In this document: positions 14,579-31,533 of the stretch, one piece after another
Layout: each line of letters starts with the position of its first letter
Position numbering within the stretch: position 1 is the first letter of the stretch
Source: Actinotalea endophytica
GTDB lineage: Bacteria; Actinomycetota; Actinomycetes; Actinomycetales; Cellulomonadaceae
Direction of reading: 5' to 3'
Length of the DNA: 34,280 nt
Assembly: GCF_025717005.1 (NCBI RefSeq)
Contig: NZ_JAOVZU010000006.1
Coordinates: forward strand, 289,184-323,463
Position numbers and translations under genes: made by a program
Notes under the pieces: model-generated
What the model saw: the letters and a program-made list of their open reading frames with translations, nothing else
The model's database searches: none
What the model was told of the DNA's origin: nothing

Positions 14579-15521
14579 GGGTGTTGGACCTTCCGGTGAT
14601 GGCGGTGAAGACCAACGCGAGGACGACGATCGTCATCGCGATCGCGCCGGCCTGGCCGAACTCGTTCCGGCTGAAGGCCATGGTGTAGGCGGAGGTCCCC
14701 AGGAGCTGTGTCGCGTTGCCGGGCCCACCGGCCGTCATGATCCAGACGAGGTCGAACGCGCGCAGGCCCGCGATGCCCGCCAGCATCGTCATCAGTGCGA
14801 GGTAGGGCCGCATCTGGGGGATGACCACGTGCCACAGGCGCTGCAGCCTCGACGCGCCATCGACCGATGCCGCGTCGAGGAGGTTCGGGTCGATGTTCTG
14901 CAGGCCGCCGAGCGAGATGACCACGTAGAAGCCTGTGCTGGCCCAGACCTGTGTCAGTACGAGCACGATGATCGCCCACTGGGGGTTCGCGAGAGGGCTC
15001 GAAGCGAGGAACGGGATCCCGAGCGCCTTGCCGATCGCCGCCAGGCCGCCGCTCACCGGCTGCCAGAGCTGCAGCCAGATGATGCCGACGATGGATGCCC
15101 CCATCATCTCGGGCACGAGGAAGACGGTTCGGAAGACCACCCAGCCCCGCGGTCTCGTCCACAAGAGGACCGCGATCAGGAACCCGATCGTGACGGCGAC
15201 GAAGAGACCGGCGATGTAGAGCACGTTCCGCCCGACGGAGTCCCAGAAGACCGAGTCCGCGAACATGCTGCTGTAGTTGGCGAATCCGATGAACGTTCGG
15301 TCGGGCGAGAAGCCGTCCCAGTCGGTCAGGCTGATGCGGAAGGTGCCGATCACCGGGTACAGGACGAACACGGCGACGAGCGCGGTGGCCGGTGCGGCGA
15401 ACAGGAGGCCCGTCAACCGCCTGCGCCAGGCCCTACGACGTCCGGGCAGGGCCCGGCTGGCGCCGGAGCAACCGGTGCCCCCTGCCGGGGCACCGGTCAC
15501 GTGGTCCGACGTGATGCTCAA
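14568..15521 (-). CDS. CUT1 sugar ABC transporter permease, MalF/UgpA type
   Basis: A protein of about 317 residues with a basic N-terminal leader, six membrane segments starting near residue 35, and the EAA loop DAASVDGASRLQRLWHVVI. The start is probably TTG 15521, overlapping the binding-protein stop (TTGA) with GGGAGA upstream. GTG 15500 is an in-frame alternative. It forms the transmembrane channel with the MalG-type partner. The reading frame stays open upstream through the binding-protein gene, but that part is a shadow of the other frame. Confidence 0.87.
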   Translation of the reverse strand: MSITSDHVTGAPAGGTGCSGASRALPGRRRAWRRRLTGLLFAAPATALVAVFVLYPVIGTFRISLTDWDGFSPDRTFIGFANYSSMFADSVFWDSVGRNVLYIAGLFVAVTIGFLIAVLLWTRPRGWVVFRTVFLVPEMMGASIVGIIWLQLWQPVSGGLAAIGKALGIPFLASSPLANPQWAIIVLVLTQVWASTGFYVVISLGGLQNIDPNLLDAASVDGASRLQRLWHVVIPQMRPYLALMTMLAGIAGLRAFDLVWIMTAGGPGNATQLLGTSAYTMAFSRNEFGQAGAIAMTIVVLALVFTAITGRSNTRES

Positions 15522-16825
15522 CCCTCGTTCTCCCACGCCGCCTGGAGCTGGTCGAAGAACTCGTCGAGCGTGATCTGGTCGGAGAAGACCTCCTGGCTGA
15601 GGCGGCCCATCAGGTCGTTGAACTCGCCCGAGGACTTGAGGTCGATCGACATGCCGGTCTCGGCGTCCGGGTCGGTCAGCGGCTCGACGCCCTGCTTGAA
15701 CAGGTCGCTGACGTCGGCGCTCTGGAGGTCGATGCCGAGCACGGGTGCGGCGAAGCCGGCGCGCTCGACCAGCTTCACGCCGGTGTCCTTGGAGACCATG
15801 AAGTCGAGGAACCGGGCGACCGCGTCTTGGTGCTCGCTGTTCGCGTTGATCACCCAGAGCGAGCCCATGCCCTGCATGGCGAACTGCCCCTGCCCACCCG
15901 GCACCTCGGGCCACGTGGTCATGTAGTACTCGTTGTCCGGTGACGCGCTCTGGATCGGTTCCAGGTTGCACGTGCATGCCGGGAAGTACGAGAGCGCGTC
16001 CTTGCTCTCGATGAGCGAGATCGCGGTGTTGTTGTCGAGCGTGCTCATCTCGGGGATGAAGCAGCCGGCATCCTTCGCGGTGACCAGCACGGTCTCGATC
16101 GCAGCCCGGATGTCGGGGTCCGTCCACGCCCCAGCCTCGTGGTTCGCGAACGCGATCTCGTCCTCGGGGCCGAGGAGGTTGAGGATCGGCAGCCCGAGGT
16201 AGAAGTACCAGATCCAGCCGGCGCCGTTGTCGCCGCTGGAGATCGGCACGATGTCGTTGGCGCGCGCCACCTGGCAGACGTTCGCGAGGTCGTCGACCGT
16301 GGTCGGAACGGTGAGGCCGAGCTCGTCCAGCGCAGTCTGGTCCCACAGCATCCCGTTGATCTCGGCTTCGACGCCGAGGCCGAACAGGTCGCCGTCGTCA
16401 GCGGTCCCCCAGGCGAGGGCGCCTTCGGCCACCCTGTCCTTCCAGCCGTACTCGGTGGCGTAGTCCTCGAGGCTCTGGGCAAGGCCGGCCTCGTAGAGCT
16501 CGCGGCCGGTCGACACCTCGACGTAGGCGAGGTCCGGTGTGTCACCCGAGCGGAAGGCGTTCTTGACCAGCGGCGAGAGCTTGTCGGACTCGTAGCGGGT
16601 CTGCTCGACCTTGATGTCGGGGTTCTCGGCCATGAAGTCGTCGAGGATCGAGTCGACGGCGTCGATCGTCTCGGGGTCTGCCGTCTGGTTCCAGTAGGTC
16701 AGCGTCGTCACGCCGTCCGTTCCACCCGCATCGTCGGCGCCGCCCGATCCACAGGCAGCCACTGATCCGATGGCCAACGCCGTGCAGACGGCGGCCGCGC
16801 CGAGCCGTGTCGTTCGCTTGTGCAT
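15518..16825 (-). CDS. CUT1 sugar ABC transporter substrate-binding lipoprotein
   Basis: A 435-residue lipoprotein with signal peptide and lipobox SVAAC (Cys25), followed by a Gly/Asp-rich linker. It has a family 1 solute-binding fold (MalE/UgpB-like) with LTYWNQTADPETIDAV at the start of lobe 1 and INGMLWDQTALDELGL near the middle. Two further cysteines (PACTC) could form a disulfide. GAGGAG lies 6 nt before ATG 16825. It is the first gene of the minus-strand importer operon, preceded by a promoter and SorC-type operators. The ligand is unknown; co-regulation suggests a sugar or sugar acid related to cluster B. Confidence 0.9.
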   Translation of the reverse strand: MHKRTTRLGAAAVCTALAIGSVAACGSGGADDAGGTDGVTTLTYWNQTADPETIDAVDSILDDFMAENPDIKVEQTRYESDKLSPLVKNAFRSGDTPDLAYVEVSTGRELYEAGLAQSLEDYATEYGWKDRVAEGALAWGTADDGDLFGLGVEAEINGMLWDQTALDELGLTVPTTVDDLANVCQVARANDIVPISSGDNGAGWIWYFYLGLPILNLLGPEDEIAFANHEAGAWTDPDIRAAIETVLVTAKDAGCFIPEMSTLDNNTAISLIESKDALSYFPACTCNLEPIQSASPDNEYYMTTWPEVPGGQGQFAMQGMGSLWVINANSEHQDAVARFLDFMVSKDTGVKLVERAGFAAPVLGIDLQSADVSDLFKQGVEPLTDPDAETGMSIDLKSSGEFNDLMGRLSQEVFSDQITLDEFFDQLQAAWENEG

Positions 16826-16902
16826 TCCATCTCCTCGTTGAGCGTGGTGCCGGGCTCCCTCGGTGTTTCGGCTACCGGGAGCACGTGGCGGATCGCTCCG
16901 GG

Positions 16903-16931: not shown

Positions 16932-16952
16932 TGAGCGTTCGCTCGTTTGAGC
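16931..16952. promoter_or_regulatory. SorC-type operator pair upstream of the minus-strand importer
   Basis: GCTCGTTTGAGC (16941-16952) matches the SorC dyad. It is preceded by ATGAGC (16931-16936), which is itself inverted relative to the GCTC at 16941. The elements overlap and sit beside the -35 box, consistent with control by the adjacent SorC regulator. Confidence 0.6.
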
Positions 16953-16957
16953 GGATC

Positions 16958-18034
16958 TCATGGATCCTCGAGCAAGGCTGCCGCGGCCGCGGTGTCCGTC
17001 ACGAGAGCGTTGGCGAAGCCCCCTCGAAGCACCGCGCGGATCGCCCGTGCCTTCGAGGCGTGCCCGGCGACGGCGACCACCGTGGGGATCGCGCGGAACT
17101 CCTCGGTCGGGATGCTCATCAGCTGACCGGAGAGCGGAGTCGCGATCTCCTTGCCCTCCTTGTCCAGGAAGAGTCCGCCCACCTCGGCCTGCAACCCGGC
17201 GGCGGTCAGCACCTCCCGCACGTCCTGGGAGACGAACTGGTGCAGCAGCGAGTTCGGAGGATCCCAGCTGCCGATCGTGACGAGTCCCACGGAGATGTCG
17301 CGGAACTGCTCGAAGGTCTCTGCGATGCCGTGCGACCTGCGCAGCGCGCGCGCGGTCGCCGAGTCGGGCGCGATGAGCGGTGCGTAGAGGGGGTAGGGCT
17401 GAGCCCCGGTGATCGCCGAGAAGCGGCGCACGAGCTCCATCGAGTTGCTGCTCGGAGGGCCGGTGATGCCCGACATCTGGACGACGGGGCACCGTGGGAG
17501 GGCCGTTGCTGCGTTCGCGACCGCCTCGACGGAGCGTCCCCAACCGACGCCGAGCACGTCGCCGTCGGCGAGGAGGCCGGCGAGCAGGCGGGCTCCCTCG
17601 CGGCCCAGCGCCTCGCGCATCTCTGCTTCGGTCAAGTGGCTCGACTCGACGACTGCGGCATGGCGAAGGTCGTACTGAGCCTTGAGCCGCGTGCTCAGGT
17701 CGCGGCGGCCGTAGCGCGGGCGGTGCAGCGTGATCTGGACCGTGCCACGCCGCTCGGCCTCGTCGAGGAGACGCGCGATACGGAAGCGCGAGATGCCGAA
17801 CTCCTCCGCGATCGTCACGCGGCTCTGCCGGGCGAAGTAGTACCGCTCGGCGACCCGGAGGAGGAGATCGTCGTGATCGGGCCCGTCGTCGTCCTCGCCG
17901 ACGTCCTCGGGATCGAACATGACGTCACTGGTCCGGACGGCGCCCTCGCGTGGTCCTGAAGCCCCCCCGTGGGACGAGGTCTCCTCCGGCGCGCCCGCGT
18001 CGGGGCTCTCAGCCTCGCCATCAATACCGCTCAT
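16958..18034 (-). CDS. SorC-family sugar-responsive transcriptional regulator (cluster B, first copy)
   Basis: A 358-residue SorC regulator. It has an unusual acidic, low-complexity N-terminal extension of about 50 residues (rich in D, E, G and S) before the helix-turn-helix RVTIAEEFGISRFRIARLL. The sugar-phosphate-binding domain has GVGWGRSVEAV, VVQMSGITG, TIGSWDPPNS and VVAVAGHASKARAIRAVL. ATG 18034 lies inside GCTCATGTGAGC, with TAGAGT exactly 6 nt upstream, so it is probably leaderless. It is a close paralogue of the regulator at 18724 and likely controls the importer at 16825. Without the extension its length would be normal for the family. Confidence 0.9.
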   Translation of the reverse strand: MSGIDGEAESPDAGAPEETSSHGGASGPREGAVRTSDVMFDPEDVGEDDDGPDHDDLLLRVAERYYFARQSRVTIAEEFGISRFRIARLLDEAERRGTVQITLHRPRYGRRDLSTRLKAQYDLRHAAVVESSHLTEAEMREALGREGARLLAGLLADGDVLGVGWGRSVEAVANAATALPRCPVVQMSGITGPPSSNSMELVRRFSAITGAQPYPLYAPLIAPDSATARALRRSHGIAETFEQFRDISVGLVTIGSWDPPNSLLHQFVSQDVREVLTAAGLQAEVGGLFLDKEGKEIATPLSGQLMSIPTEEFRAIPTVVAVAGHASKARAIRAVLRGGFANALVTDTAAAAALLEDP

Positions 18035-18046
18035 GTGAGCACTCTA
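18029..18046 (-). promoter_or_regulatory. Leaderless promoter and operator over the first cluster B SorC start codon
   Basis: GCTCATGTGAGC (18029-18040) contains the ATG (18034-18032). The -10 box TAGAGT (18046-18041) is followed by six bases and the ATG. The geometry is identical to that at 6816-6833. Confidence 0.72.
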
Positions 18047-18686
18047 GCGGCGGGGGGTCGGCCGCGGGCAAGGCCCGATCCGCCGTCGATGACGCGGGCC
18101 GGCCCCGGCTTCCAGGTCCGCTCGGTCGCAGCACGACCGAGGGGTCGCCGCGCTCGCTCCGCGGCGCTCTCATACCAAGCTTCGCTGCCGCGAGGTCCGC
18201 CGGGTCCATCTCTACCCCGAGGGCCCCGCGGCCGCCCGCTCGTACCAGGTGTGCGCCGCGTCCGGCTCGACCGTCTCGTTGGTGACGCCCTGGTTGAACA
18301 TCGCCATGGCGTGCCCCGACTTCGCGGCCGCGAGGAGCCACTGCCGGCCGGAGGCTCGGTCGTCCGCCGTCGACCCGGAGAGCAGCTGCACACCGAACCG
18401 GACGCATGGGCGCGCTGAACTGCAGTTCGCACGATGCCGGGATGACGTGGAGCGCACGATTCCGGACCACCAGCAAGACAATGCCATCGTGGTCGCTCAG
18501 AATGCCGCAAGAATCGGATCGATTCAGACGTGGCTGGCATTGGGGCGCTGCAGTCCGCCGCCGGGGACAGTCATCCGACCCGCGGTCGAGTGGAGGTCTC
18601 GTCGGTGTTGGTGCGCGCGAGGCCGTCGCCGTCCGAGCGTCGTGCCGAGCAGGCGAAAACATCGTCCAAGATGTGGCGATGTGGTC
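18047..18686. other. Gap between the two cluster B SorC genes
   Basis: About 640 bp without an intact gene. It holds decayed Sel1-like repeat coding sequence (18150-18375, minus strand) and, at its right edge, an orphan SorC-type operator (18687-18698). Several overlapping open frames here have shadow-like composition and no ribosome binding sites. This looks like a deletion or decay scar between duplicated regulators. Confidence 0.55.
18150..18375 (-). pseudogene. Remnant of a Sel1-like repeat protein
   Basis: On the minus strand, one frame reads WLLAAAKSGHAMAMFNQGV followed by DAAHTWYERAAA. This is the Sel1/TPR-like repeat pattern (A-W-AA-G-A-N-G, then A-WY-AA). It ends at a TAG near 18212. 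After it, a different frame resumes with EAWYESAAER, again a Sel1 helix end. The change of frame, the stop and the lack of a proper start and end indicate a decayed gene fragment. Sel1 proteins are usually signalling or scaffold proteins; nothing ties this one to sugar use. Confidence 0.5.
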
Positions 18687-18698
18687 GCTCACATGAGC
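18687..18698. promoter_or_regulatory. Orphan SorC-type operator
   Basis: GCTCACATGAGC has the same sequence, on the opposite strand, as the operator at 18029-18040, but no gene start is evident beside it. On the minus strand it is followed by GTGAGCGAC, like the first codons of a SorC gene, yet no TANNNT box lies upstream and the frame is not a recognisable protein. It may be a leftover of a duplicated regulator start, or an auxiliary binding site for looping. Confidence 0.5.
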
Positions 18699-18723
18699 AG
18701 GTCGCGATGGGTCGGGACCTGGT

Positions 18724-19668
18724 TCAGTCCGCGGTCAGACGGCGCGCCACGGTCGAGTCCGTCACGAGCGCACTCACGTAGCCGCCCTTGAGCACCGCGC
18801 GGATGGCCCGCACCTTCGACACGTGTCCGGCGACCGCGACGACGGTCGGGACGGCCGACAGGTCGCTGGCGGAGATGCTGATGACCCTGCGGGCGAGCGG
18901 CGTGTCCAGCTCCTCGCCGTCCTGGCCCAGGAAGATCCCGCCGAGCTCGGCCTGCAAGCCGCACCGCGTCAGCAGGTCGCGGTCCGCCGGCGACACGTAC
19001 TGGCGCAGCTGCGAGTTCGGGGGGTCCCAGCTGCCGACCGCGACCAGCGCGACGGAGACGTCCCGGAAGCGCGCGAACGTCTCGGCGATGCCATGGGAGG
19101 TGCGGAGCGCACGGGCGGTCGCCGCATCCGGCAGCACGAGCGGCGCGTACAGCGGGAACGCAGGTTCCCCGGTCAGGGACGAGAACAACCGGACCAGCTC
19201 AGATGAGTTGTCGCCGGGACGTCCCGTGATGCCCGAGAGCTGCACGACGGGGCAGCGGGCGAGTGTCGGAGCGGCGTCGGCCACGGCCTTCACCGCTCGG
19301 CCCCAACCGACGCCGAGGACGTCACCGTCGGCAAGCAGCCTTGCGAGCAGACGGGCGGCCTCCCGCCCGAGCATCTGGCGCAGCTGAGCTTCGGGGACCG
19401 CTCCCGCCCTCACCACGACGGCGTGCCGCAGTCCGTACCGCTCGCGCAGGCGCACGGCGAGCGCGCTCTCGCCTTCGAGCGGCCTGTGCAACGTGATGCG
19501 CACGACGCCCCGTCGCTTGGCCTCGTCGAGCAGCCGGGCAACTCGGAAGCGGGAGATCTCCAGCTCGCCGGCGATGTCGACCATGCTCATGCCGTCGAAG
19601 TGGTACCGCCTGGACACGTCGACCAGCAGCGAGTCGTGATCGCGGCCCACACCACGCTGTGCGCTCAT
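18724..19668 (-). CDS. SorC-family sugar-responsive transcriptional regulator (cluster B, second copy)
   Basis: A 314-residue SorC regulator with helix-turn-helix MVDIAGELEISRFRVARLL (about residues 28-48) and sugar-phosphate-binding domain motifs GVGWGRAVKAV, VVQLSGITG, AVGSWDPPNS and VVAVAGHVSKVRAIRAVL. These are nearly the same as in the copy at 16958, so the two arose by duplication. ATG 19668 lies within GCTCATATGTGC, with TAAGAT exactly 6 nt upstream and a possible -35 TTGACC 19 bp further, again indicating a leaderless message. It diverges from the plus-strand importer and pathway genes, which it probably controls. Confidence 0.92.
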   Translation of the reverse strand: MSAQRGVGRDHDSLLVDVSRRYHFDGMSMVDIAGELEISRFRVARLLDEAKRRGVVRITLHRPLEGESALAVRLRERYGLRHAVVVRAGAVPEAQLRQMLGREAARLLARLLADGDVLGVGWGRAVKAVADAAPTLARCPVVQLSGITGRPGDNSSELVRLFSSLTGEPAFPLYAPLVLPDAATARALRTSHGIAETFARFRDVSVALVAVGSWDPPNSQLRQYVSPADRDLLTRCGLQAELGGIFLGQDGEELDTPLARRVISISASDLSAVPTVVAVAGHVSKVRAIRAVLKGGYVSALVTDSTVARRLTAD

Positions 19669-19985: not shown

Positions 19986-21320
19986 ATGAGATTGCGCAAG
20001 AGCTTCATGATCGCGGGCGCCGGCGTCGCCGCAACGAGCCTGCTCGCGGCCTGCGCGGGCGGCGCGGCCACGTCGGCCACGACGACCGACGGCTCGGCAG
20101 GCGGAGACACGGTCACGTTCCGAGGCTGGGCGCCGATCGACCCTGCCCTGAGCGGGATGATCGACGCCTTCGAGTCGGCCAACCCCGGCACCACGATCGA
20201 CGCCACCGTGATGGGCGGCCCGGACTACTGGGTCGATCTCGCCGCGCGCGTCTCGTCGAACACGATGTCCGACATCGTGGGCCTGATGCCCGGCGCCCAG
20301 ACCCAGCAGTACCGCGACTACCTCATGCCGCTGAACGAGTGTGCGGCCTCGCAGTGGGGGGACGACTGGGAGGACAAGTTCTACCCGATCGCACTGGATC
20401 AGGCGCGCCTCGGCAACCCTGACGGTGACGACAACTTCTACGGTCTCCCGGTGCTCACCCAGATCATGAACATCTGGGCGAACACCGAGATCATGGACGA
20501 GACCGGCGCGGAGATCCCGCAGACCTGGGCGGACCTCGAGGCCGTGACACCGACCTACGAGGGCAACGGCTTCACGCCCTTCCTGCTCGGCGCCAAGCAG
20601 TACTGGCTGAACACGTCGATCTACCTGGAGCTCGCGAACAACATCAACCCCGGGCTCGTGTACGAAGCCGAGGACGGCACGGTCCCCTGGACCGACCCTG
20701 ACCTCGTGAAGGCCTTCGAGTACTGGCAGAAGCTGTTCACCGACGGCATCGCCCAGGAGGGCGCCAACGCACTCGAGCCCTACCCGGACGCGGTCGGCAT
20801 GTTCGAGGCCGGCGACGCGCTCTTCCTGCCGCTCGGCTCGCAGTGGATCCAGCAGTCCGACCCCACCGCCGACCAGTCGACGATCGCCGACCTGTCCAAG
20901 GGCATGAACGGCTACGAGCCGTTCCTCTTCCCGACCATCCCGGGTGGCGCGGACAGCCCGCAGTACGTCGGAGGCGCCGAGTTCCTCTTCGGGATCTCGA
21001 AGAACTCGCAGAACCCCGAGCTGGCCTGCCAGGTGCTGACGGACTGGATCGCCGGTGCCGGCGGCCAGGTCCTCATCAACACGCTGTTCGACCTGCCTGC
21101 CGTGAAGGGCCTGGAGCCGCAGGTGTTCACCTCGGACAAGCAGGAGGAGATCTTCAACGAGCTGGCCAACGAGTGGCTGCCGCAGGTGCAGTACTCCCGC
21201 TACTTCAAGGACCCGGCGATCGAGACCGCCGTCTCCGATGCGCTCGCCGCGGTCGCCACGGGATCGATGACGCCGCAGGAGGCGGCCGAGTCGGTCCAGG
21301 AGGTCTACGACGGGCTGTGA
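19986..21320 (+). CDS. CUT1 sugar ABC transporter substrate-binding lipoprotein (cluster B)
   Basis: A 444-residue lipoprotein. The signal peptide has lipobox LLAAC (Cys23) and is followed by a Ser/Thr/Gly-rich linker and a family 1 solute-binding fold: VTFRGWAPIDPALSGMIDAF opens lobe 1 and MNIWANTEIMDETG lies in the middle. AAGGAG lies about 10 nt before ATG 19986. A perfect 14-bp hairpin follows the gene, which would stabilise its transcript and favour excess binding protein over permease. It diverges from the SorC regulator. Expected ligand: the sugar or sugar acid entering the lyxK/ula-type pathway downstream. Confidence 0.9.
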   Translation: MRLRKSFMIAGAGVAATSLLAACAGGAATSATTTDGSAGGDTVTFRGWAPIDPALSGMIDAFESANPGTTIDATVMGGPDYWVDLAARVSSNTMSDIVGLMPGAQTQQYRDYLMPLNECAASQWGDDWEDKFYPIALDQARLGNPDGDDNFYGLPVLTQIMNIWANTEIMDETGAEIPQTWADLEAVTPTYEGNGFTPFLLGAKQYWLNTSIYLELANNINPGLVYEAEDGTVPWTDPDLVKAFEYWQKLFTDGIAQEGANALEPYPDAVGMFEAGDALFLPLGSQWIQQSDPTADQSTIADLSKGMNGYEPFLFPTIPGGADSPQYVGGAEFLFGISKNSQNPELACQVLTDWIAGAGGQVLINTLFDLPAVKGLEPQVFTSDKQEEIFNELANEWLPQVQYSRYFKDPAIETAVSDALAAVATGSMTPQEAAESVQEVYDGL

Positions 21321-21327
21321 TCGCGAG

Positions 21328-21367
21328 GCCGGTTCCCGGGGTGACCTGCCCTGCCCCGGGAACCGGC
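21328..21367 (+). terminator. Intercistronic hairpin after the binding-protein gene
   Basis: GCCGGTTCCCGGGG (21328-21341) and CCCCGGGAACCGGC (21354-21367) are perfect 14-bp complements with a 12-nt loop and no T tract. It lies 8 nt after the lipoprotein stop and 50 nt before the permease ATG. It is probably a transcript-stabilising or partial-termination element, as known between malE and malF-type genes. Confidence 0.7.
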
Positions 21368-21416
21368 TCCGGCCGCAAGCCTCGTGCCCAACCGATCACC
21401 TGGAGAGCGTGAACCG

Positions 21417-22313
21417 ATGCGTCATCCCCTGGCGCGCCGCGACCGGCTGACCTCGCTGGCCTTCGTGGTGCCCGCACTGATCCTGTTCTTCGTCTTCGTC
21501 GCCTACCCGATCGTCTACAACTTCCAGGCGAGCACGCTGGACTGGGATGGCGCGACGGCGGGGACGTTCGTCGGCCTCGGCAACTTCGTGGCCCTCGCGC
21601 ACGACCCGGTGTTCACCAAGACGCTGCTGAACTCGGCGCTCTGGATCCCCTTGACGATCGTGCCGCAGGCCCTGATCGGACTCGGGCTGGCTCTCATGCT
21701 GAATCAGCCCCTGCGGGGTCGCGGCGTCTACCGCGCACTTCTCTTCCTGCCGACGGTCCTGTCACCCGTGGTCGTCGGGATCGTCTGGGCCCAGATCCTC
21801 GACCCCAACAGCGGCACACTCGCCGCCATCGCGGAGCAGACCGGCCTGACGTTCCTCAAGTTCAGCTACCTCGGCGACCCGAAGACTGCGATCTTCGCGG
21901 TGATGGTGGTGAACATCTGGATGTACACCGGCTTCTCTCTGCTCTTCTACCTGGCCGGCCTGCAGCTGATCGAACCGAGCCTGCTCGAGGCCGCGAAGCT
22001 CGACGGCGCGAACTTCTGGCAGCGGACGACGCGCGTCACCTTCCCGCTGCTGCGGAACACTCACCTCACGCTGCTCCTGCTGGGGATCATCGGGTCTCTG
22101 AAGACGTTCGAGCTGCTGTACGTGCTGACGTCGGGTGGGCCCTACCACGCGAGCGAGATGCTCCCGACCTATGCGTTCAAGCAGGCGTTCCAGCTTCACT
22201 CGATCGGCTACGCCTCCGCCATCAGCGTCGCGCTTCTCGTGATCGCGATCGGCAGCTCGCTCCTCATGACCCGGGTCTTCGGCGCCGGCTTCATCACGGG
22301 GGAGGAACGATGA
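21417..22313 (+). CDS. CUT1 sugar ABC transporter permease, MalF/UgpA type (cluster B)
   Basis: A 298-residue permease with six predicted membrane segments beginning at about residue 13 and the EAA loop EAAKLDGANFWQRTTRVTF. ATG 21417 is preferred, with GGAGAG upstream; GTG 21384 would add 11 residues without a ribosome binding site. It forms the channel with the next gene. Confidence 0.9.
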   Translation: MRHPLARRDRLTSLAFVVPALILFFVFVAYPIVYNFQASTLDWDGATAGTFVGLGNFVALAHDPVFTKTLLNSALWIPLTIVPQALIGLGLALMLNQPLRGRGVYRALLFLPTVLSPVVVGIVWAQILDPNSGTLAAIAEQTGLTFLKFSYLGDPKTAIFAVMVVNIWMYTGFSLLFYLAGLQLIEPSLLEAAKLDGANFWQRTTRVTFPLLRNTHLTLLLLGIIGSLKTFELLYVLTSGGPYHASEMLPTYAFKQAFQLHSIGYASAISVALLVIAIGSSLLMTRVFGAGFITGEER

Positions 22314-23149
22314 GCGGTCGACGACCTGCGCAGCTGAGCCGACGGGTCAACCTGCTGCACCTGATCCTCGTCCCGGTCACCGTCGCCTGGATGCTGCCGA
22401 TCGTGATCGTCATCGGCCTGTCACTGAAGCCGACGAACGATCCGGGGACCATCGCGTTCGGGATGCTCCCACGCAGCCCTTCGTTCGCGAACTACGTGAC
22501 CGTCTTCCAGCAGAACCCCATACCGCGGTACCTCTTCAACAGCGCGCTCATCGCCGTGCCGTCCGTGGTCCTCGTGGTCCTGCTCGGCTCCATGGCGGCG
22601 TTCGCTCTCGCTCGCCTGAGGGTGCCGGCCAAGGGCTGGATCTTCGGTCTGCTGACCCTCGCGCTGGTCCTGCCGATGTCGAGCATCGTGGTGGCGACGT
22701 TCCAGGTCCTCCAGGCCTTGGGCCTCTACAACTCGACCTTCGGTGTGAGCATCGTGTACACCGCGCTCGGGCTGCCGTTCGCCATCATCCTCATCCGCAC
22801 CTCGTTCATGGCTGTGCCGCAGGAGACGCACGACGCGGCCGTCGTCGACGGGGCCAACAAGTGGCAGACCTTCTGGCACGTGTACCTGCCGCTCGCCCGC
22901 CCAGCCATCGCGGTGGTCGTCGTCTGGCAGCTGATGCTTGCCTGGAACGACTTCCTCCTGCCGCTGGTCTCCCTCGTCGACAAGGACATCAAGCCGTTGA
23001 CCCTGATCCCCCTCGTCTACCGAGGCGAGCACTTCACCCAGGTGGGGGCTCTCTTCGCGATCCTGATCGTGGTGTCCGTCCCGATCGTCGCCACGTTCGC
23101 CATCGCCCAGCGTTCGCTGGTCAACGGGCTCGCCGGGGCCGTCAAGTGA
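22310..23149 (+). CDS. CUT1 sugar ABC transporter permease, MalG type (cluster B)
   Basis: A 279-residue permease with six membrane segments, EAA loop DAAVVDGANKWQTFWHVYL and a typical C-terminal end LVNGLAGAVK. The ATG overlaps the previous stop by 4 nt (ATGA), with GGGGGAGGA upstream, so translation is coupled. No ATPase gene follows; the next genes are metabolic. A shared MsiK-type ATPase elsewhere in the genome is required by inference. Confidence 0.91.
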   Translation: MSGRRPAQLSRRVNLLHLILVPVTVAWMLPIVIVIGLSLKPTNDPGTIAFGMLPRSPSFANYVTVFQQNPIPRYLFNSALIAVPSVVLVVLLGSMAAFALARLRVPAKGWIFGLLTLALVLPMSSIVVATFQVLQALGLYNSTFGVSIVYTALGLPFAIILIRTSFMAVPQETHDAAVVDGANKWQTFWHVYLPLARPAIAVVVVWQLMLAWNDFLLPLVSLVDKDIKPLTLIPLVYRGEHFTQVGALFAILIVVSVPIVATFAIAQRSLVNGLAGAVK

Positions 23150-23195
23150 CCTCGCCCGGCTCTCCCGCAAGCACCCCGACCGAAGCAGGAGCGTC

Positions 23196-23726
23196 ATGCA
23201 ACCCAAACTGATCCACCACGTCGGCATCCTGGTAGCGAACCTGGAGGAAGCCATCGAGCGGTGGGAGCGGATCACGGGGTACACCTTCGGCCCGATCCAC
23301 CGGTACCGGAGCAGCCACTACCGCGACTCCAGCGAGCAGGACGAGCACCTCCACGACGCACGGCTCTCCTTCTCGCGCGAGGGGACGCCGCACATCGAGC
23401 TGCTCGAGGCGACCGGCACAGGTACGCACGGCGCAGCGAACCTGGGGGTTCACCACCTCGCCTTCGTCGACTACGGCGACCTGGAGGCGGAGCATGAGCG
23501 GGTCACCGGTCTGGGCCTGCAGGTCGACGGCCGCGACGTGAACGACGCCGGCGAGCTGCTGCTGTTCTTCACCGACCCGCCGAGCACCGATCACGTCCGA
23601 CTCGAGTTCGTCGCCCCGCGCGACCATCCCAATGTCATGGACGACGGTTCGCCGATGTGGCGCGACCCGAGCACCGGGCGATTCGACGCATGGGGACCGG
23701 ACGGCAAGGACTGGAGGGGTCGCTGA
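23196..23726 (+). CDS. VOC-superfamily (glyoxalase/epimerase-fold) metal enzyme in the sugar pathway
   Basis: A 176-residue protein with two beta-alpha-beta-beta-beta modules. IHHVGILVANLEEAIERW (residues 6-23) and VHHLAFVDYGDLEAEHERV (85-103) open the modules. Likely metal ligands are H8, E68 (HIELLE), H87 and E137 (RLEFV), the H-E-H-E arrangement of methylmalonyl-CoA epimerase-type VOC enzymes. AGGAG lies 4 nt before ATG 23196. It sits between the permease and the kinase, overlapping the kinase start by 1 nt, so it is co-translated with the pathway. An epimerase or isomerase acting on a keto-sugar acid before phosphorylation is a reasonable guess. No described yia/ula pathway known to me has such a member. 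Confidence 0.8.
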   Translation: MQPKLIHHVGILVANLEEAIERWERITGYTFGPIHRYRSSHYRDSSEQDEHLHDARLSFSREGTPHIELLEATGTGTHGAANLGVHHLAFVDYGDLEAEHERVTGLGLQVDGRDVNDAGELLLFFTDPPSTDHVRLEFVAPRDHPNVMDDGSPMWRDPSTGRFDAWGPDGKDWRGR

Positions 23727-25234
23727 TGGGGCGATACGTGATCGGGGTCGACAACGGCGGCACGTTCATCAAGGCCGGGATGTACGACCAGGACGGAACC
23801 CTCGTCGCGCTCGCGAAGGAGCGCAACGTCGTTCGCGCCCTGGCCGGGGGGCGGGTCGAGGTCGATCAGGAGGAGCTGTGGCAGGCCAACTGTCGGTGCG
23901 TGCGGCGGCTGATGGCCGACAGCGGCGTGCCGCCCGAGGAGGTCGAGTGCTTGGGCTTCGCGGGCCAGGGCAAGGGACTCTGGCTGCTCGGTGACCGTGG
24001 GGAGCTGGTTCGTGCCGGGATCACGTCCGCGGACGACCGTGCCTGGCGCTACGCGGAGCAGTGGAAGGCGGACGGCAGGGCCGCTGCGATCTTCCCGGCG
24101 ACCCTTCAGGGTCTCTTCAGCTCCCACCCGGTGACCATCCTCAGGTGGCTGAAGGACCACGAGCCCGAGGTGTACGACGCCGCACGCTGGGTCTTCTCGA
24201 TGAAGGACTACCTCGTCTTCCGCGCGACCGGCGAGGTCGTGTCGGACTACTGCAACCAGTCGGGCAACAGCTTCATCAACCTCGCGACGCGCGAGTACGA
24301 CCCGACGATCCTCGAGAAGCTGGGCGTCCCCGAGTTCATCGAGAAGCTTCCTCCCCTGTTCGAGGCCGCTGAGGTCGTCGGTTCGGTCACGGCGGCGGCG
24401 GCAGCCGAGCTCGGCTGCGCGGGGGGGACCGCAGTCATCGCGGGCATGTTCGACGTGGATGCGAGCGCGGTGGCGGCCGGTCTGGTCGACCAGTCGGTCG
24501 TGTGCCTCATCACCGGCACCGCGGGGGTGAATGTGTACGCCGCGCCGGAGCCGGTGGCCGACGGTTCGGTGGCCATGAACTCGCTCTACTGCATCCCGCA
24601 GACCTACCTGGTCGAGGAGGGCTCGAACACCTCGGTCGGGACGATGGAGTGGGTCGCGGACACCCTCTTCGGTCCGGAGCTTCGGGCCGCCTGGGACGAC
24701 CGCTCGGCGGTCTACGGCCAGATGGCGGGGGCCGCTCGTTCGGTCGAGGTCACCTCGAGCGACGCAGTGTTCCTCCCGTTCCTCCAAGGCGATGGCTTCG
24801 GGGGGCGCAGCGGCGGGGTGTGGGCCGGTCTGTCGTCGACCGATCGGCGCGAGCACCTGACAAGGGCCGCCTTCGAGGGAGTGGTGTTCGCCCATCGGCG
24901 GCACATCGATCGACTGCTTCGGCATCGGCCCGCGCCGCGTGCCTACCGGATCGCCGGCGGGGCTGCCCGCTCGGCGCACTGGGTGCAGCTGTTCGCCGAC
25001 GTGCTCCAGCGGCCGATCGAGGTCACGACCGAGAGCGAGCTCGGCGTCAAGGGTGTGGGCATCGCAGCCGGCATCGCCACGGGCGTGTACACGGGCTTCG
25101 CCGATGCCGTGGCGAAGCTTGCGCCGGCGAACGAGACGGTCGAGCCGGACGCTGCGATGGCCGAGCACTACGACCGCAAGTACGACAGGTTCAGCCGCGC
25201 GGCCGAGCGGCTCCGCGATGTCTGGGCCGACTGA
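23726..25234 (+). CDS. lyxK: FGGY-family kinase, L-xylulose/3-keto-L-gulonate kinase-like
   Basis: A 502-residue FGGY kinase. The phosphate loop is GVDNGGTFIKAGMYD (7-21), the active-site motif is GFAGQGKGLWLL (77-88), the LyxK-like segment HPVTILRWLKDHEPE lies at residues 134-148, and the catalytic base is D243 in GMFDVDA. The AQGKG and HPVxLLRWLKxHEPE motifs are those of E. coli LyxK (YiaP), which phosphorylates L-xylulose and 3-keto-L-gulonate. ATG 23726 overlaps the VOC stop (TGATG) with GGAGGGG upstream. It is followed by decarboxylase and epimerase genes in the same order as in the yia operon. A rare L-sugar substrate is inferred from this context. Confidence 0.82.
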   Translation: MGRYVIGVDNGGTFIKAGMYDQDGTLVALAKERNVVRALAGGRVEVDQEELWQANCRCVRRLMADSGVPPEEVECLGFAGQGKGLWLLGDRGELVRAGITSADDRAWRYAEQWKADGRAAAIFPATLQGLFSSHPVTILRWLKDHEPEVYDAARWVFSMKDYLVFRATGEVVSDYCNQSGNSFINLATREYDPTILEKLGVPEFIEKLPPLFEAAEVVGSVTAAAAAELGCAGGTAVIAGMFDVDASAVAAGLVDQSVVCLITGTAGVNVYAAPEPVADGSVAMNSLYCIPQTYLVEEGSNTSVGTMEWVADTLFGPELRAAWDDRSAVYGQMAGAARSVEVTSSDAVFLPFLQGDGFGGRSGGVWAGLSSTDRREHLTRAAFEGVVFAHRRHIDRLLRHRPAPRAYRIAGGAARSAHWVQLFADVLQRPIEVTTESELGVKGVGIAAGIATGVYTGFADAVAKLAPANETVEPDAAMAEHYDRKYDRFSRAAERLRDVWAD

Positions 25235-25270
25235 CCGACGCCGACTTCGGAACGGGAGAGAGAGAGTCAC

Positions 25271-25903
25271 ATGAAGTTGCAGGTTGCACTGGACACCTTC
25301 TCGCTGGAGACCGCGGTCGCGGTCCTCGAGCGGATCGCGCCCTGGGTCGACGTCGCCGAGATCGGGACGGGTCTGGGGATCAGCGCCGGCATCGAAGCCG
25401 TGCGAGTCATCAAGGAGGCGCATCCGCAGCTCGAGGTGCTCTCCGACATCAAGATCATGGACGGCGGCGAGAGCATGGCGGCGTTCGTGCTCGATGGCGG
25501 CGCCGACATCGTGTCGGTCCTGGGCGTGACGGACGACGCGACCGTCGCTGCAGCCGTCGGCGCAGCGCACGAGCGCGGCAAGCGGGTGCTCTGCGACATG
25601 ATCGGCGTGCGTGACGTCGCCACACGGGCCGCGGAGCTCGACTCCCTGGGTGTCGACCTGGTCTGCGTCCACACGCCCTACGACCTCCGCGAGACGGTCA
25701 AGCCACCGGCCGAGGCGCTCGTCCAGGTGAAGGCAGCCGTGACCCGAGCCGGCACGGTGGTCACGGGCGGCATCAAGCTCGACACCGTCGACTCGATCGT
25801 GGCGCTTGCCCCGGACGTGGTGGTCGTCGGCAGCGGCATCATGGCCGCCGCTGACCCTGAGGCAGCGGCGAAGGCCTTCCACCGAGCGGTGCACGCCGCC
25901 TAA
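25271..25903 (+). CDS. HPS/KGPDC-family enzyme (3-keto-L-gulonate-6-P decarboxylase or hexulose-6-P synthase-like)
   Basis: A 210-residue TIM-barrel member of the OMP decarboxylase suprafamily. The shared residues are D8, E30, the metal/catalytic triad D59-x-K61-x-x-D64, H134 and the phosphate-binding GSGI at 187-190. The residues known to separate the two activities are mixed: D109 is HPS-like (E112 in E. coli KGPDC), Y137 replaces KGPDC R139, and T165 is KGPDC-like (T169). Overall sequence, for example DMIGVRDVATRA, is closer to hexulose-6-phosphate synthase. The operon (LyxK-type kinase, UlaE, UlaF) argues for decarboxylation of a 3-keto-hexonate 6-phosphate to L-xylulose 5-P. The function is therefore left between the two. 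Confidence 0.8.
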   Translation: MKLQVALDTFSLETAVAVLERIAPWVDVAEIGTGLGISAGIEAVRVIKEAHPQLEVLSDIKIMDGGESMAAFVLDGGADIVSVLGVTDDATVAAAVGAAHERGKRVLCDMIGVRDVATRAAELDSLGVDLVCVHTPYDLRETVKPPAEALVQVKAAVTRAGTVVTGGIKLDTVDSIVALAPDVVVVGSGIMAAADPEAAAKAFHRAVHAA

Positions 25904-25946
25904 GCACGACCGACTCCCGGCACCGGCCGGGCAGCCACTCCCATCG

Positions 25947-25974
25947 AACGCTCGGCGCGTACGCGCCCAGCGTT
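25947..25974 (+). repeat. 28-bp inverted repeat between the decarboxylase and 3-epimerase genes
   Basis: AACGCTCGGCGCGT and its complement ACGCGCCCAGCGTT meet with no spacer and one mismatched pair, so the 28 bp form a near-perfect dyad. It lies 43 nt after the stop. It could be an intercistronic RNA hairpin that tunes expression of the last two genes, or a regulator site. No T run follows directly. Confidence 0.55.
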
Positions 25975-26001
25975 GGCGAAGCACACCCTTTTGGAGGCGA
26001 C

Positions 26002-26160
26002 GTGCCTGGTCACGACTGGTGCAGTCGACGCCCTCGGCAACCCGCGCGCAGCGCGAGGGCCATCAGCGACGTTGCGTTCGCGCGGGCCCCTGACGAGCTC
26101 GACCGACAGGTCGGCGTTCGCGTGCTTCACGTCGCGGGTCCCCGGGGGTGGTCGCGGTGA
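26002..26160 (+). CDS. Possible 52-residue leader ORF overlapping the 3-epimerase start
   Basis: GTG 26002 is preceded by TTTTGGAGG at good spacing, the strongest ribosome binding site in this 244-bp gap. The frame runs to TGA 26158-26160, 13 nt into the next gene, whose own start lacks a good ribosome binding site. The peptide (Arg/Ala-rich, starting VPGHDWCSRRP) resembles nothing known to me. It may serve to couple translation into the epimerase, or be spurious. Confidence 0.28.
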   Translation: MPGHDWCSRRPRQPARSARAISDVAFARAPDELDRQVGVRVLHVAGPRGWSR

Positions 26161-27062
26161 CCGCGCTGCGACCGGTGACCTGGGGGGTCGAGCTCGGCGT
26201 CTATGAGAAGGCGCTCCGGTGGGCGGGTTCCTGGGACGATCTGTTCCGGCAGGCCGCTGATGCGGGGTTCGCCTTCGTGGACCTCTCGGTCGACGAGACG
26301 GACGACCGCGTCTCCCGTCTCTGGTGGCCGGATGCGGTGCGCGGGGAGGTTCGCGAGGCGAGCCTGCGCCACGGTGTGGCGATCGGCGGCCTGTGCCTGT
26401 CGGCGCACCGCAAGGTCGCTCCGGGCAGCGCTGACCCGGCCGTGCGGCGACGGTCGCAGGAGCTGCTGCTGCGCAGCGTGGACCTGAGCGTGGACCTGGG
26501 TGCCCCGCTGATCCAGGTCGCGGGCTACTACGCCTTCTACGAGGCTCCCCGGTCGGGGGCACGCGAGCACTACCTCGACGTGATCGCCGCGGGCGCCGCC
26601 TATGCCGCACAGCGGGGCGTGATGCTCGGTATCGAGAACGTCGACGGGACCGACATCACCTCGATCAGCCGGGCGCTGGAAGCGTGCGACGAGATCGGGT
26701 CGGCCCACCTTCAGCTGTATCCGGACATCGGCAACCTGACCGAACGCGGTCTTGACGTCGTCGCCGAGCTCGCCGCGGGCCGCGGGCGGATGCTCGCGCT
26801 GCACGTGAAGGACACGCGCCCGGGCGAGCCGCGACGGGTCCCGATGGGCACGGGGGCCGTCCCGTGGGCGAAGGCGTTCACCGAGCTCGCTCGGCAGGGG
26901 TGGTCGGGGCGGATGCTCATCGAGATGTGGAACGACTCGCGGCCCGACTCCGCCGCGGAGGCACAACGCGCGCGGGAGTTCATCCGGGGCCGGCTCGAGG
27001 CCGCCGGCATCCCGGTCGCCACGCGGACGCCAGGACCGGTGGCTGAACGCCACGCTCAGTAG
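26148..27062 (+). CDS. ulaE: L-ribulose/L-xylulose 5-phosphate 3-epimerase (UlaE/SgbU family)
   Basis: A 304-residue TIM-barrel sugar-phosphate epimerase. It is highly similar to E. coli UlaE/SgbU throughout: LGVYEKAL near residue 16, VDLSVDETDDRVSRL, CLSAHRK, LQLYPDIGNL, HVKDTRPGE and IEMW. The metal ligands E163, D193, H219 and E259 are all present. GTG 26148 is used; GTG 26157 is equally possible. It interconverts L-xylulose 5-P and L-ribulose 5-P, the step between the decarboxylase and the 4-epimerase. It is the most securely identified enzyme of cluster B and anchors the pathway assignment. Confidence 0.92.
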   Translation: MVAVTALRPVTWGVELGVYEKALRWAGSWDDLFRQAADAGFAFVDLSVDETDDRVSRLWWPDAVRGEVREASLRHGVAIGGLCLSAHRKVAPGSADPAVRRRSQELLLRSVDLSVDLGAPLIQVAGYYAFYEAPRSGAREHYLDVIAAGAAYAAQRGVMLGIENVDGTDITSISRALEACDEIGSAHLQLYPDIGNLTERGLDVVAELAAGRGRMLALHVKDTRPGEPRRVPMGTGAVPWAKAFTELARQGWSGRMLIEMWNDSRPDSAAEAQRAREFIRGRLEAAGIPVATRTPGPVAERHAQ

Positions 27063-27079
27063 CACCTTGGAGGAGAGCA

Positions 27080-27751
27080 GTGCTGGACGAACTCAAAGGA
27101 CAGGTCTGCGAGGCGAACCTCGCCCTTCCGCGACATGGGTTGGTGACGTGGACGAGCGGGAACGTCTCAGCGCGCGACGAGGAGAGCGGGCTCGTGGTGA
27201 TCAAGCCATCGGGTCTCCGGTACGAGGTGATGACCAGCGAGGACATGGTCGTGGTCGACCTCGAGGGCAGAGTTGTCGAGGGCGGGAGAGGCCCGTCGTC
27301 CGACACGTTGTCGCACCTCGGCGTCTACCGCGCTCGCGCTGACGTGGCTGCCGTCGTCCACACTCACTCTCGCTATGCCACGGCGTGGGCTGCCATCGGC
27401 GAGACGATCCCGTGCGCGCTCACCGCGATCGCGGACGAGTTCGGTGGCGACGTTCCGCTCGGGGACTATGCGCCCATCGGATCGGACGCGATCGGCGCCG
27501 AGATCGTGCGATGCATCGGCGACTCACCCGCGATCCTGATGAAGCACCACGGTGTCTTCACGATCGGCCCGACCATCGACAAGGCGCTCCAAGCCGCGGT
27601 GATGGTCGAGGACGTGGCGCACACGATGGCGATCGCGCGGGGCCTCGGTGAACCCGTTCGCCTCTCGGCGGAGCGGATCGCCGAGAACTGGGATCGGTAT
27701 CGACACCGGTACGGCACCAGCGCGGCCAGCGAAGGGGTGTCGCGGGTGTAG
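27080..27751 (+). CDS. Class II aldolase family L-ribulose-5-phosphate 4-epimerase (AraD/UlaF/SgbE type)
   Basis: A 223-residue protein of the normal AraD length. The zinc ligands are H94 and H96 (VVHTHSRYAT) and H157 (KHHGVFT). TSGNVS (25-30) and SSDTLSH (73-79, with D75 as the likely acid/base) are the phosphate and catalytic motifs of the 4-epimerases. GGAGGAGAG lies upstream of GTG 27080. As the last gene of the cluster B operon it would convert L-ribulose 5-P to D-xylulose 5-P, which enters the pentose-phosphate pathway. An aldolase function, as in fuculose-phosphate aldolase, is less likely because of the UlaE partner. Confidence 0.88.
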   Translation: MLDELKGQVCEANLALPRHGLVTWTSGNVSARDEESGLVVIKPSGLRYEVMTSEDMVVVDLEGRVVEGGRGPSSDTLSHLGVYRARADVAAVVHTHSRYATAWAAIGETIPCALTAIADEFGGDVPLGDYAPIGSDAIGAEIVRCIGDSPAILMKHHGVFTIGPTIDKALQAAVMVEDVAHTMAIARGLGEPVRLSAERIAENWDRYRHRYGTSAASEGVSRV

Positions 27752-27795: not shown

Positions 27796-28287
27796 TCAGC
27801 GGCTCCACGGCGGCGCCGCACGCAAGGTCAGCGCGGTCGCGACGGCCGCCTGGGCGGCCTCGTACCCCTTGTCCTCGCGAGACCCCGGGAGCCCGGCACG
27901 GTCGATCGCCTGGGCGTCGTCGTCGCAGGTCAGCACGCCGAACCCGACCGGCACGCCGGTGCTCACGGACACCTGGGTGAGGCCGTCCGTCGCCGCCTGG
28001 CACACGTAGTCGAAGTGTGGGGTCCCGCCGCGGATCACGACCCCGAGCGCGACGACCGCGTCGGCGCCCGCGTCGGCGAGGCGCCGGGCCGCCACCGGCA
28101 GCTCGAACGAGCCGGGGACGCGGACGACGTCCGCCTCGGTGATCGTCGCGCCGGCCTCGTCGAGGGCGCGCAGCGTTCCGGCGACCAGACCGTCCATGAC
28201 CGTGGTGTGCCAGCTCGCGGCCACGACGGCGATGCGCAGACCGCGCGCGTCGAGGTGGGCCGGGGCGGGTGCGCCGGTGCCGCTCAT
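27796..28287 (-). CDS. ribH: 6,7-dimethyl-8-ribityllumazine synthase
   Basis: A 163-residue lumazine synthase. It condenses 5-amino-6-ribitylamino-uracil with 3,4-dihydroxy-2-butanone 4-P in riboflavin synthesis. Motifs: [12 protein letters not shown] at the substrate site, [25 protein letters not shown] with the catalytic histidine, [20 protein letters not shown] and the C-terminal [13 protein letters not shown] 28287 overlaps the ribBA stop by 4 nt. It is the last gene of the rib operon. Confidence 0.97.
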
Positions 28288-29582
28288 CGGATCTCCTGAG
28301 GGGTCGGGGCGGCGCCGTTGGCACCGCTGGTGGGTTCGTCGTCGAGCAGGTGGCCCATCAGCTGGGCCTTGGTCGCCAGGTAGGTGGCGTTGTGCGCCGT
28401 CCGGCCGACGCGCAGCGGCTGCGGGTCGACCTCGACGCCGTGCGCCATCAGGCCCGCGACCTTCGCCGGGTTGTTCGTCAGCAGCCGGACCCCGGTCAGC
28501 CCGAGGTCGGCGAGGATCGCCGCGGCCGCGCCGTACTCGCGGCGGTCGGCCGGCAGCCCGAGGTCCAGGTTGGCCTGGACGGTGTCCCGGCCGGCGTCCT
28601 GCAGCGCGTACGCGTCGATCTTCGGCAGCAGCCCGATCCCGCGACCCTCGTGGCCGCGCAGGTAGACCACGGCGCCGCCCTCGCGTGCGGCCTGGTCGAG
28701 CGCCGCCTCGAGCTGCGGCCCGCAGTCGCAGCGCAGCGACCCGAACGCGTCCCCGGTGAGGCACTCGGAGTGCACCCGCACCACCGGCACGGCCGCGGGA
28801 TGCTCGGGTGCGACCGGGACGAGCGCGACGTGGTCGGCGCCGGTGCGCAGGTCGCGGTAGCCGTGCACGGTGAACTCGCCGTGTCGCGTCGGCAGCTGGG
28901 CCGACCCGGTCCGGTGCACCCGGGGGCGGCGGTCGGGGTCCGCCGCGACGGGCGCGTCGTCGCCGTGCTCACGACGCCAGGCGATCAGGTCCGCGATGGA
29001 CAGCAGGACGAGGCCGGCCTCGCGGGCCAGGGCGGCGCTGTCGTCGAGCCGCATCATCGTGCCGTCGTCGTTCACGAGCTCGGCGATCCCGGCGACCGGG
29101 TCGAGCCCCGCGAGCCGGCACAGGTCCACCGCAGCCTCGGTGTGCCCGGCACGGTGCAGGACGCCGCCGGGCACCGCGCGGAGCGGCAGGACGTGGCCGG
29201 GCCGGATCACGTCGTCGGGCCCGGCCGCCGGGTCGGCCAGCACGCGCAGGGTCCGGGCACGGTCGGCGGCCGAGATGCCGGTGGTGACCCCGTGCGTCGC
29301 GTCCACCGTGACCGTGTACGCCGTGCGCCGCGGGTCCTGGCTGTGCGGCACCATCAGCGGCAGGTCGAGCGCGTCGGCGCGGGCCGCCGGCATCGGGGCG
29401 CACAGGTACCCCGACGAGTGCCGGATGGTCCACGCGACCCACTCGGCCGTGGCGGTGCCGGCCGCGAGCACGACGTCCGCCTCGTTCTCGCGGTCGGGGG
29501 AGTCCACCACCAGCACCGGCTGCCCGCTGCGCAGCGCCTCGAGCGCGTCCTCCACGGTGCCGAGCACCACGTCGTCGGTCAT
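28284..29582 (-). CDS. ribBA: Bifunctional 3,4-dihydroxy-2-butanone 4-phosphate synthase / GTP cyclohydrolase II
   Basis: A 432-residue fusion enzyme. The N-terminal RibB domain (about 1-205) has [15 protein letters not shown] with the metal-binding acidic residues, [24 protein letters not shown] and GHTEAAVDL. The C-terminal RibA domain (about 215-415) has the zinc cysteines in [17 protein letters not shown], the catalytic [12 protein letters not shown] and LLTNNPAK. It provides both starting compounds of riboflavin. ATG 29582 overlaps the ribE stop (ATGA) with GGAGGG upstream. A Gly is replaced by Ala in the usual DRENEGD motif (ENEAD), a conservative change next to the acidic ligands. Confidence 0.96.
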
Positions 29583-31480: not shown

Positions 31481-31533
31481 ACGTACGTGTTCGAGCGCAG
31501 TGTGCCACACGCTCATGGGGGTTCCCCTGGGAC

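Follow-up and report, generated by a model that had tools for sequence, protein, structure and literature searches.

Positions 19,986 to 27,751 of a 34,280-nucleotide stretch of the Actinotalea endophytica genome (assembly GCF_025717005.1, contig NZ_JAOVZU010000006.1), the whole of which is called the window here, hold an eight-gene operon related to the yia and ula operons of Escherichia coli. The best overall explanation, which we hold with slightly less than even confidence, is that the operon serves to break down a keto-L-hexonate without a redox step. It includes an enzyme of the 3-hexulose-6-phosphate synthase (HPS) clade that carries a threonine of the 3-keto-L-gulonate-6-phosphate decarboxylase (KGPDC) type. 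More tentatively, a Bacillota-type, formaldehyde-fixing HPS may have been turned by nature into a 3-keto-L-hexonate 6-phosphate decarboxylase and paired with a VOC epimerase in place of the reductase or lactonase entry, in a redox-free operon scattered over two families of one taxonomic order. Gene content, synteny, phylogeny, active-site letters and the lack of any recognised oxidoreductase in the operon are directly established. The window corresponds to G000:C17:289184-323463 of a 4.25 Mb genome, and its local G+C is 67-76%.

Gene content and conservation of the operon

The eight genes lie on one strand, from the ATG of the solute-binding lipoprotein (SBP) gene to the stop codon of AraD, and profile searches gave the order SBP, two CUT1-type permeases, VOC protein, FGGY kinase, HPS/KGPDC-family enzyme, UlaE and AraD, with a divergent SorC gene (Table 1). 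This is the gene order that a sequence-only reading of the window had proposed. By family, the yia/ula set of kinase, OMPDC-suprafamily enzyme, 3-epimerase and 4-epimerase is complete, the activities being predicted ones. UlaE passed the subfamily models NF009688 and NF009689 (244.5, cut-off 200) and failed the equivalog TIGR00542 (244.1, cut-off 272.15), AraD passed the subfamily model NF005123 and failed TIGR00760 araD (173.9, cut-off 389.1), and the kinase passed no NCBIfam cut-off; the exact reactions of the three enzymes are therefore putative. The kinase probably starts at ATG 23726, sharing TGATG with the VOC stop, rather than at GTG 23657, and permease 1 probably at ATG 21417, while the mechanical open reading frame (ORF) begins at 21384.

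A lipoprotein SBP followed by two BPD_transp_1 permeases makes up a CUT1 importer, with the SBP assigned through weak profile matches (TIGR03851 and TIGR03850 far under cut-off, no Pfam match at 0.001). Neither TRAP nor PTS genes turned up in the scan, which covered part of the window's ORFs and did not extend to the whole genome; the replacement of such uptake by ABC import proposed earlier agrees with this. Neither the operon nor its counterpart in genome G756 has a recognised oxidoreductase, and Ldh_2, the YiaK family, had no match genome-wide, a control search being positive in 4 of 14 named genomes; the absence of the reductase proposed earlier thus holds for the YiaK family. Likewise, no lactonase was recognised in the operon, the UlaG search not being extended to the whole genome. 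No riboswitch reached the gathering threshold within the operon, and nothing convincing in the way of shared SorC operators emerged across the six intergenic stretches compared. Among the matches listed in a literature survey of titles and abstract openings, no description of this operon was found.

The complete operon, with the same gene order and a divergent SorC gene, also occurs in locus L077 of G756, a genome from another family of the same taxonomic order, at 47-81% identity (best tblastn pieces). The arrangement is more than chance because it recurs in G756, and the VOC gene is a true operon member since it holds the same place in a genome of another family, which upholds its earlier proposal as a new member of the pathway. 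At first, second and third codon positions, identity between the window and G756 was 0.743, 0.778 and 0.474 for the VOC gene, 0.733, 0.800 and 0.524 for the HPS-clade gene and 0.83, 0.83 and 0.48 for AraD; third positions are the least conserved, as in protein-coding genes under selection.

Searched with UlaE at 1e-40, 396 genomes of the order gave 17 with a match, the source genome among them. Sixteen stretches from 15 further genomes were taken and, with G280 and G135 included and the window excluded, 18 UlaE loci were examined. Fifteen of them carry a KGPDC-type gene and a PfkB-family kinase and one (G756) the window version, while neither HPS nor KGPDC was detected in L091 and L092. At least two rebuilt forms of the pathway exist in the order. 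Thirteen of the 18 loci (L035, L078-L088, L090) combine SorC, a phosphotriesterase-type lactonase, KGPDC, UlaE, AraD, a PfkB kinase and an MFS transporter; they share with the window the SorC neighbour and the UlaE and AraD relatives, but have no VOC, FGGY or CUT1 match, having a KGPDC-type gene, PfkB-family kinase, lactonase and MFS protein. Their gene order varies, with AraD on the opposite strand in L087 and L088.

The other genes are sparsely distributed as well. In samples that overlap, the VOC gene was found in one of 200 genomes of the family (its own; 1e-8), in one of 24 of G756's family (G756; 1e-15) and in 3 of 217 of the phylum (its own, G281 and G1071; 1e-15); UlaE was present in 2 of 394 class genomes and 2 of 19 genus genomes, and the kinase at 1e-60 in at least 2 of 394 class genomes, three candidates per genome being scored. 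This scattered occurrence suggests horizontal transfer.

Several loci are of interest in their own right. In L053 (G135, of the same genus), SorC, MFS, a lactonase-type protein, a divergent KGPDC (R67, A169), a PfkB kinase, AraD and UlaE occur with two ORFs resembling, on inspection by eye, a split transketolase; a transporter gene of G280 matches the G135 MFS protein. The UlaE match of L063 (G633) contains one internal TAA. In L092 (G900), a LyxK-like kinase at 8171-9636 adjoins a UlaE-family gene and looks broken: its match is split into two pieces lying in different frames, the first piece containing stops.

Descent and active site of the HPS-clade enzyme

In a 35-row tree, the window enzyme pairs with its G756 ortholog (100/100) inside a 23-row HPS clade that is split from KGPDC at 100/100, and the pair joins Bacillota HPS rows with moderate support (91/91). 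Tree and alignment took 7 of the 13 new KGPDC loci (L078-L090); the other 21 HPS rows came from 11 class genomes and one Paenibacillus plasmid (tblastn) and from nine annotated plasmid loci, 10 of the 186 plasmid records with an HPS match having been fetched. The correspondence with E. coli lyxK-sgbH-sgbU-sgbE drawn in the sequence-only reading thus stands for the LyxK-type kinase, UlaE and AraD, but not for the decarboxylase, which is not SgbH or UlaD by descent and has a mixed active site.

Columns were screened for letters common to the window and G756 and absent from the HPS rows, with at least 19 of the 21 HPS rows agreeing. In UlaD numbering (own residue 165 is UlaD 169, own Gly 34 is UlaD 37), four changes were found, P37G, A61S, E72M and A169T, each against a letter present in 21 of 21 HPS rows. 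Within the 23 HPS-clade rows, Thr169 is confined to the window enzyme and its G756 ortholog; it is present in 11 of the 12 KGPDC-clade rows. Positions 37 and 169 appear as columns 6 and 21 in the signature table of PMC5980557, where the threonine of column 21 is given as the sole residue unique to KGPDC. As a separate observation, the eight aligned KGPDC rows from the SorC-lactonase-MFS loci of the order (one from L089, which has no lactonase match) have R64 and E67 in place of K64 and D67 in 8/8, and K136 in place of H136 in 5/8.

The gene neighbourhood also sets this enzyme apart. All 21 other HPS rows have an adjacent hxlB (12 of 13 tblastn loci, the thirteenth being the KGPDC of G280, and 9/9 annotated plasmid loci). 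No hxlB scored over the cut-off in the source genome and none was seen in the 19-kb stretch L077; nor has the source genome a second HPS or KGPDC paralog at 1e-3. Compared with the hxlA-hxlB module of the ribulose monophosphate (RuMP) pathway, whose HPS-clade sequences are about 34-46% identical to the window enzyme, the window lacks hxlB and has Pro37 and Ala169 replaced. An ordinary RuMP module is ruled out, as no hxlB passes the cut-off and the operon continues to UlaE and AraD; the SIS protein at 10582-11247 was likewise rejected as hxlB, being KdsD-like with 52.5 bits against an HxlB cut-off of 160. Elsewhere in the order, the hxlB of G394 shares 82% identity with an Arthrobacter plasmid hxlB.

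Judged by its sequence, the window enzyme looks like an HPS by descent that has moved partway towards KGPDC. In the alignment, the UlaD mutant 1xbx has D, V and A at positions 112, 139 and 169, which agrees with an engineered change of KGPDC in the direction of HPS; Wise (2005) and Yew (2005) reportedly studied the two families by means of designed mutants. The proposed natural change from HPS to decarboxylase runs in the reverse direction to the laboratory change of KGPDC. The two enzymes serve as a model pair for change of enzyme function. With a natural HPS-clade protein that has the KGPDC threonine, conserved in an ortholog outside its own family, the opposite change can be tested directly.

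The VOC protein, the kinase and the proposed pathway

The VOC protein belongs to the Glyoxalase_4 family and matches the methylmalonyl-CoA epimerase model weakly (21 bits, cut-off 114.95). In an alignment of five proteins, from which the G1071 relative was left out, H8, E68, H87 and E137 are identical in 5/5, and we take these to be metal-ligand-type positions. The GYTF and HDAR motifs and a C-terminal DDGS extension are common to the window, G756 and G281, and absent from Rhodococcus and Deltaproteobacteria relatives. Further searches for relatives gave one 29% match among genome_contigs and two at 30-34% in plasmids, with none among viral_contigs and no close one found in the PDB. The closest relative outside the two operons is that of G281 (50%, blastp), on one strand between a cyclase and a zinc dehydrogenase, followed by a sugar porter. 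The best PDB match of the cyclase is 4p53 (357.7 bits; the next, a 3-dehydroquinate synthase, 195.7), labelled only 'Cyclase' in the search output and corresponding to the valiolone synthase ValA. The one-strand run (L098:3876-12584) also contains aldonolactone-oxidase-like, SDR and GMC proteins and is a possible cyclitol pathway. CetB is a VOC-type epimerase of 2-epi-5-epi-valiolone; with the window protein it has the VOC superfamily in common, and proton transfer beside a polyol ketone is proposed for both. Owing to the cyclase neighbourhood in G281, epimerisation next to a polyol ketone is the best guess for the window protein, and the analogy suggests an alpha-hydroxyketone epimerase.

The kinase gave blastp scores of 295 and 293 bits with the kinases of two Pantoea yia operons, 279 with E. 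coli LyxK, 252-274 with three rhizobial-type kinases and, lower, 206 with G499, 137 with XylB and 127 with LsrK. In two trees (support 99/98 and 97/97), the second omitting the A. tumefaciens and partial FucK rows of the first, it falls in a clade with LyxK, the Pantoea and rhizobial kinases and G499, apart from XylB and LsrK. A xylulokinase is ruled out, since the best NCBIfam score, 217.6 for XylB, is below the cut-off of 380.25 and the kinase lies off the XylB branch. The clade does not fix the substrate, because its rhizobial-type members sit in operons with other genes. The Pantoea operons (L020, L058), with the order yiaK, YiaL-like, MFS, FGGY, ulaD, 3-epimerase, araD, hold the top-scoring kinases among the best 30 of 800 plasmid records. 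There too, ABC importer genes adjoin a yia-type set; unlike the window, they have another ABC type and an MFS protein, yiaK and a YiaL-family gene, and an annotated UlaD.

The E. coli comparison can be drawn similarly. The yiaKLMNO-lyxK-sgbHUE operon has a LyxK-type kinase, an OMPDC-suprafamily enzyme, a 3-epimerase and a 4-epimerase in the same order as the window, which differs in having no recognised YiaK, YiaL or TRAP genes, in having CUT1-type permeases, a VOC protein and SorC, and in the HPS-clade origin of its OMPDC-suprafamily enzyme. With the ula operon and UlaG, for L-ascorbate, the window shares UlaE- and UlaF-type epimerases; it lacks a recognised PTS or UlaG lactonase, has a kinase instead, and its enzyme lies outside the KGPDC clade. 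L-xylulose and L-ribulose 5-phosphate are established substrates of UlaE and AraD in the ula and yia pathways, and according to PMC6958661 LyxK phosphorylates 3-keto-L-gulonate, with SgbH, SgbU and SgbE following. A rebuilt yia/ula pathway is thus right in outline.

A six-carbon 3-keto substrate is indicated because a conserved OMPDC-suprafamily step precedes UlaE and AraD, and the imported compound would already be at the keto level, since neither a dehydrogenase nor a lactonase is recognised in the operon. Substrates that fit are 3-keto-L-gulonate, its C2 or C4 epimer and its 2-keto isomer. Substrate, the order in which VOC protein and kinase act, every activity and the regulation are what we infer as follows. 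The CUT1-type importer, which we assume is energised by a shared MsiK-type ATPase, would take up 3-keto-L-gulonate, an epimer or the 2-keto isomer. The VOC protein would set the stereochemistry or keto position of this compound, shifting a proton at the carbon beside the ketone via a metal-bound enediolate and so epimerising or isomerising it to 3-keto-L-gulonate. The LyxK-type kinase would then form the 6-phosphate, the HPS-clade enzyme with Thr169 would decarboxylate it to L-xylulose 5-phosphate, and UlaE followed by AraD would convert the latter to D-xylulose 5-phosphate. SorC may sense a pathway intermediate: of the SorC control proposed earlier, the neighbouring gene is present, in L077 too, and the regulation itself is a prediction. 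If the VOC protein does act in a sugar-acid pathway, it adds an entry reaction to that pathway.

Decarboxylation is not proven, because the enzyme is of the HPS clade with a mixed active site, and a number of observations weigh against the keto-L-hexonate proposal. The enzyme and its G756 ortholog pass the HxlA model TIGR03128 (215.4 and 206.9 bits, cut-off 200) and fail the KGPDC models PRK13306 (96.4 and 90.2, cut-off 250) and PRK13305 (73.7 and 82.8, cut-off 294). Positions 112, 139 and 192 are HPS-like (D, Y, S; E, R, R in classical KGPDC), Gly37 is typical of neither family, and the KGPDC-clade protein of G135, from a similar operon, has Ala169, so that the threonine does not run through the whole KGPDC clade. 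Two rows each of KGPDC and HPS underlie the published signature, and promiscuity between the families is noted in the same source (PMC5980557). AlphaFold single-sequence models, with pLDDT 38.5 and 52.6, were not of usable quality. Beyond this enzyme, the full operon was found in just two genomes, G281 and G1071 have the VOC gene without other operon genes in the stretch seen (19 kb and a 4.1-kb contig), the VOC and kinase genes overlap in the window but lie 64 bases apart in G756, and the trees do not resolve the kinase's place inside the LyxK-type clade. The likeness to CetB, finally, comes solely from the G281 neighbourhood.

The HPS-like features would suit reverse HPS chemistry, in which the VOC protein turns an imported L-series 2-ketohexose into a 3-hexulose, the kinase phosphorylates it and the HPS-clade enzyme releases formaldehyde and L-xylulose 5-phosphate. 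Phylogeny, D112, Y139, S192 and the HxlA model all speak for HPS, yet the genome has no hxlB over the cut-off, Thr169 and Gly37 replace residues invariant in the other HPS rows, and the operon shows no recognisable formaldehyde-handling gene (no genome-wide search was made), so that we regard this route as unlikely. It is somewhat less probable that the VOC protein is a glyoxalase-like accessory for oxidised ascorbate products such as 2,3-diketo-L-gulonate or fragments, outside the main route. Its Glyoxalase_4 membership and the weakness of its epimerase-model match would agree with such a role; its identical position in both operons and the cyclitol-like surroundings of the G281 relative argue otherwise. 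An L-pentose substrate such as L-xylulose is more doubtful again: E. coli LyxK is annotated as L-xylulose kinase, and the window kinase could give L-xylulose 5-phosphate directly while the VOC protein isomerises aldose to ketose, but the HPS-clade gene, inside the operon in both genomes and 68% identical, would be left as a side branch with no role. A different substrate, for instance an inosose or other cyclic keto-polyol, recalls the cyclase beside the G281 VOC gene and is very improbable, as UlaE and AraD indicate L-xylulose or L-ribulose 5-phosphate and the source genome has a single DHQ-synthase-family gene, which is what AroB by itself would give.

Neighbouring genes in the window

Table 1. 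Features of the operon and its surroundings, in window coordinates
Feature	Position	Strand	Evidence or remark
Third SorC gene of the window	5841-6821	-	
SBP2 of neighbouring CUT1 set	15518..16825	-	24% identical to operon SBP
Second SorC regulator	16958..18034	-	63-64% identical to SorC3
SorC-family regulator (SorC3), divergent from operon	18724..19668	-	PF04198 1.4e-51; 65% identical gene in same position in L077
CUT1-type solute-binding lipoprotein (SBP)	19986..21320	+	weak profile matches; 81% vs L077
Perfect 12-bp inverted repeat in SBP/permease 1 gap; possible RNA hairpin	21330..21365	+	
Permease 1 (BPD_transp_1, PF00528)	21417..22313	+	77% vs L077
Permease 2 (BPD_transp_1, PF00528)	22310..23149	+	77% vs L077
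VOC protein, proposed metal-dependent keto-sugar-acid epimerase	23196..23726	+	PF13669 3.3e-12; 67% vs L077
LyxK-type FGGY kinase (FGGY_N, FGGY_C)	23726..25234	+	profiles, trees; 47% vs L077
HPS-clade enzyme with KGPDC-type Thr	25271..25903	+	PF00215, TIGR03128; alignment and tree; 68% vs L077
UlaE/SgbU-family pentulose-5-phosphate 3-epimerase (putative)	26148..27062	+	NF009688 323.7 (cut-off 317); 62% vs L077
AraD/UlaF-family L-ribulose-5-phosphate 4-epimerase (putative)	27080..27751	+	NF005123 312.5 (cut-off 251); 74% vs L077
DMRL synthase gene	27796-28764	-	
Lumazine-binding domain gene	29579-31015	-	

A second CUT1 set, SBP2 with two permeases, lies beside its own SorC gene on the minus strand (13682-18034); this regulator probably belongs to that set, and the two SorC proteins are far more alike than the two SBPs. 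Neither CUT1 set was found to include an ATPase, and the ABC ATPase recognised in the window is of the ribose type (9065-10597). About 690 bases separate the two SorC genes (18035-18723), and an ORF scanned there (18021-18692, minus strand) matched no family.

Further upstream, 5841-12731 is a sugar operon with SorC (minus strand), a ribose-type permease, SBP and ATPase, a KdsD-like SIS protein and a XylB-type kinase that passes its model (412.2 bits, cut-off 380.25). The SIS protein has no CBS match, and an arabinose-5-phosphate-isomerase-like protein adjoining a xylulokinase is an unexplained pairing. On the other side of the operon, an FMN riboswitch at 31344-31485 (minus strand, 92.6 bits) lies near the riboflavin genes, an ordinary arrangement.

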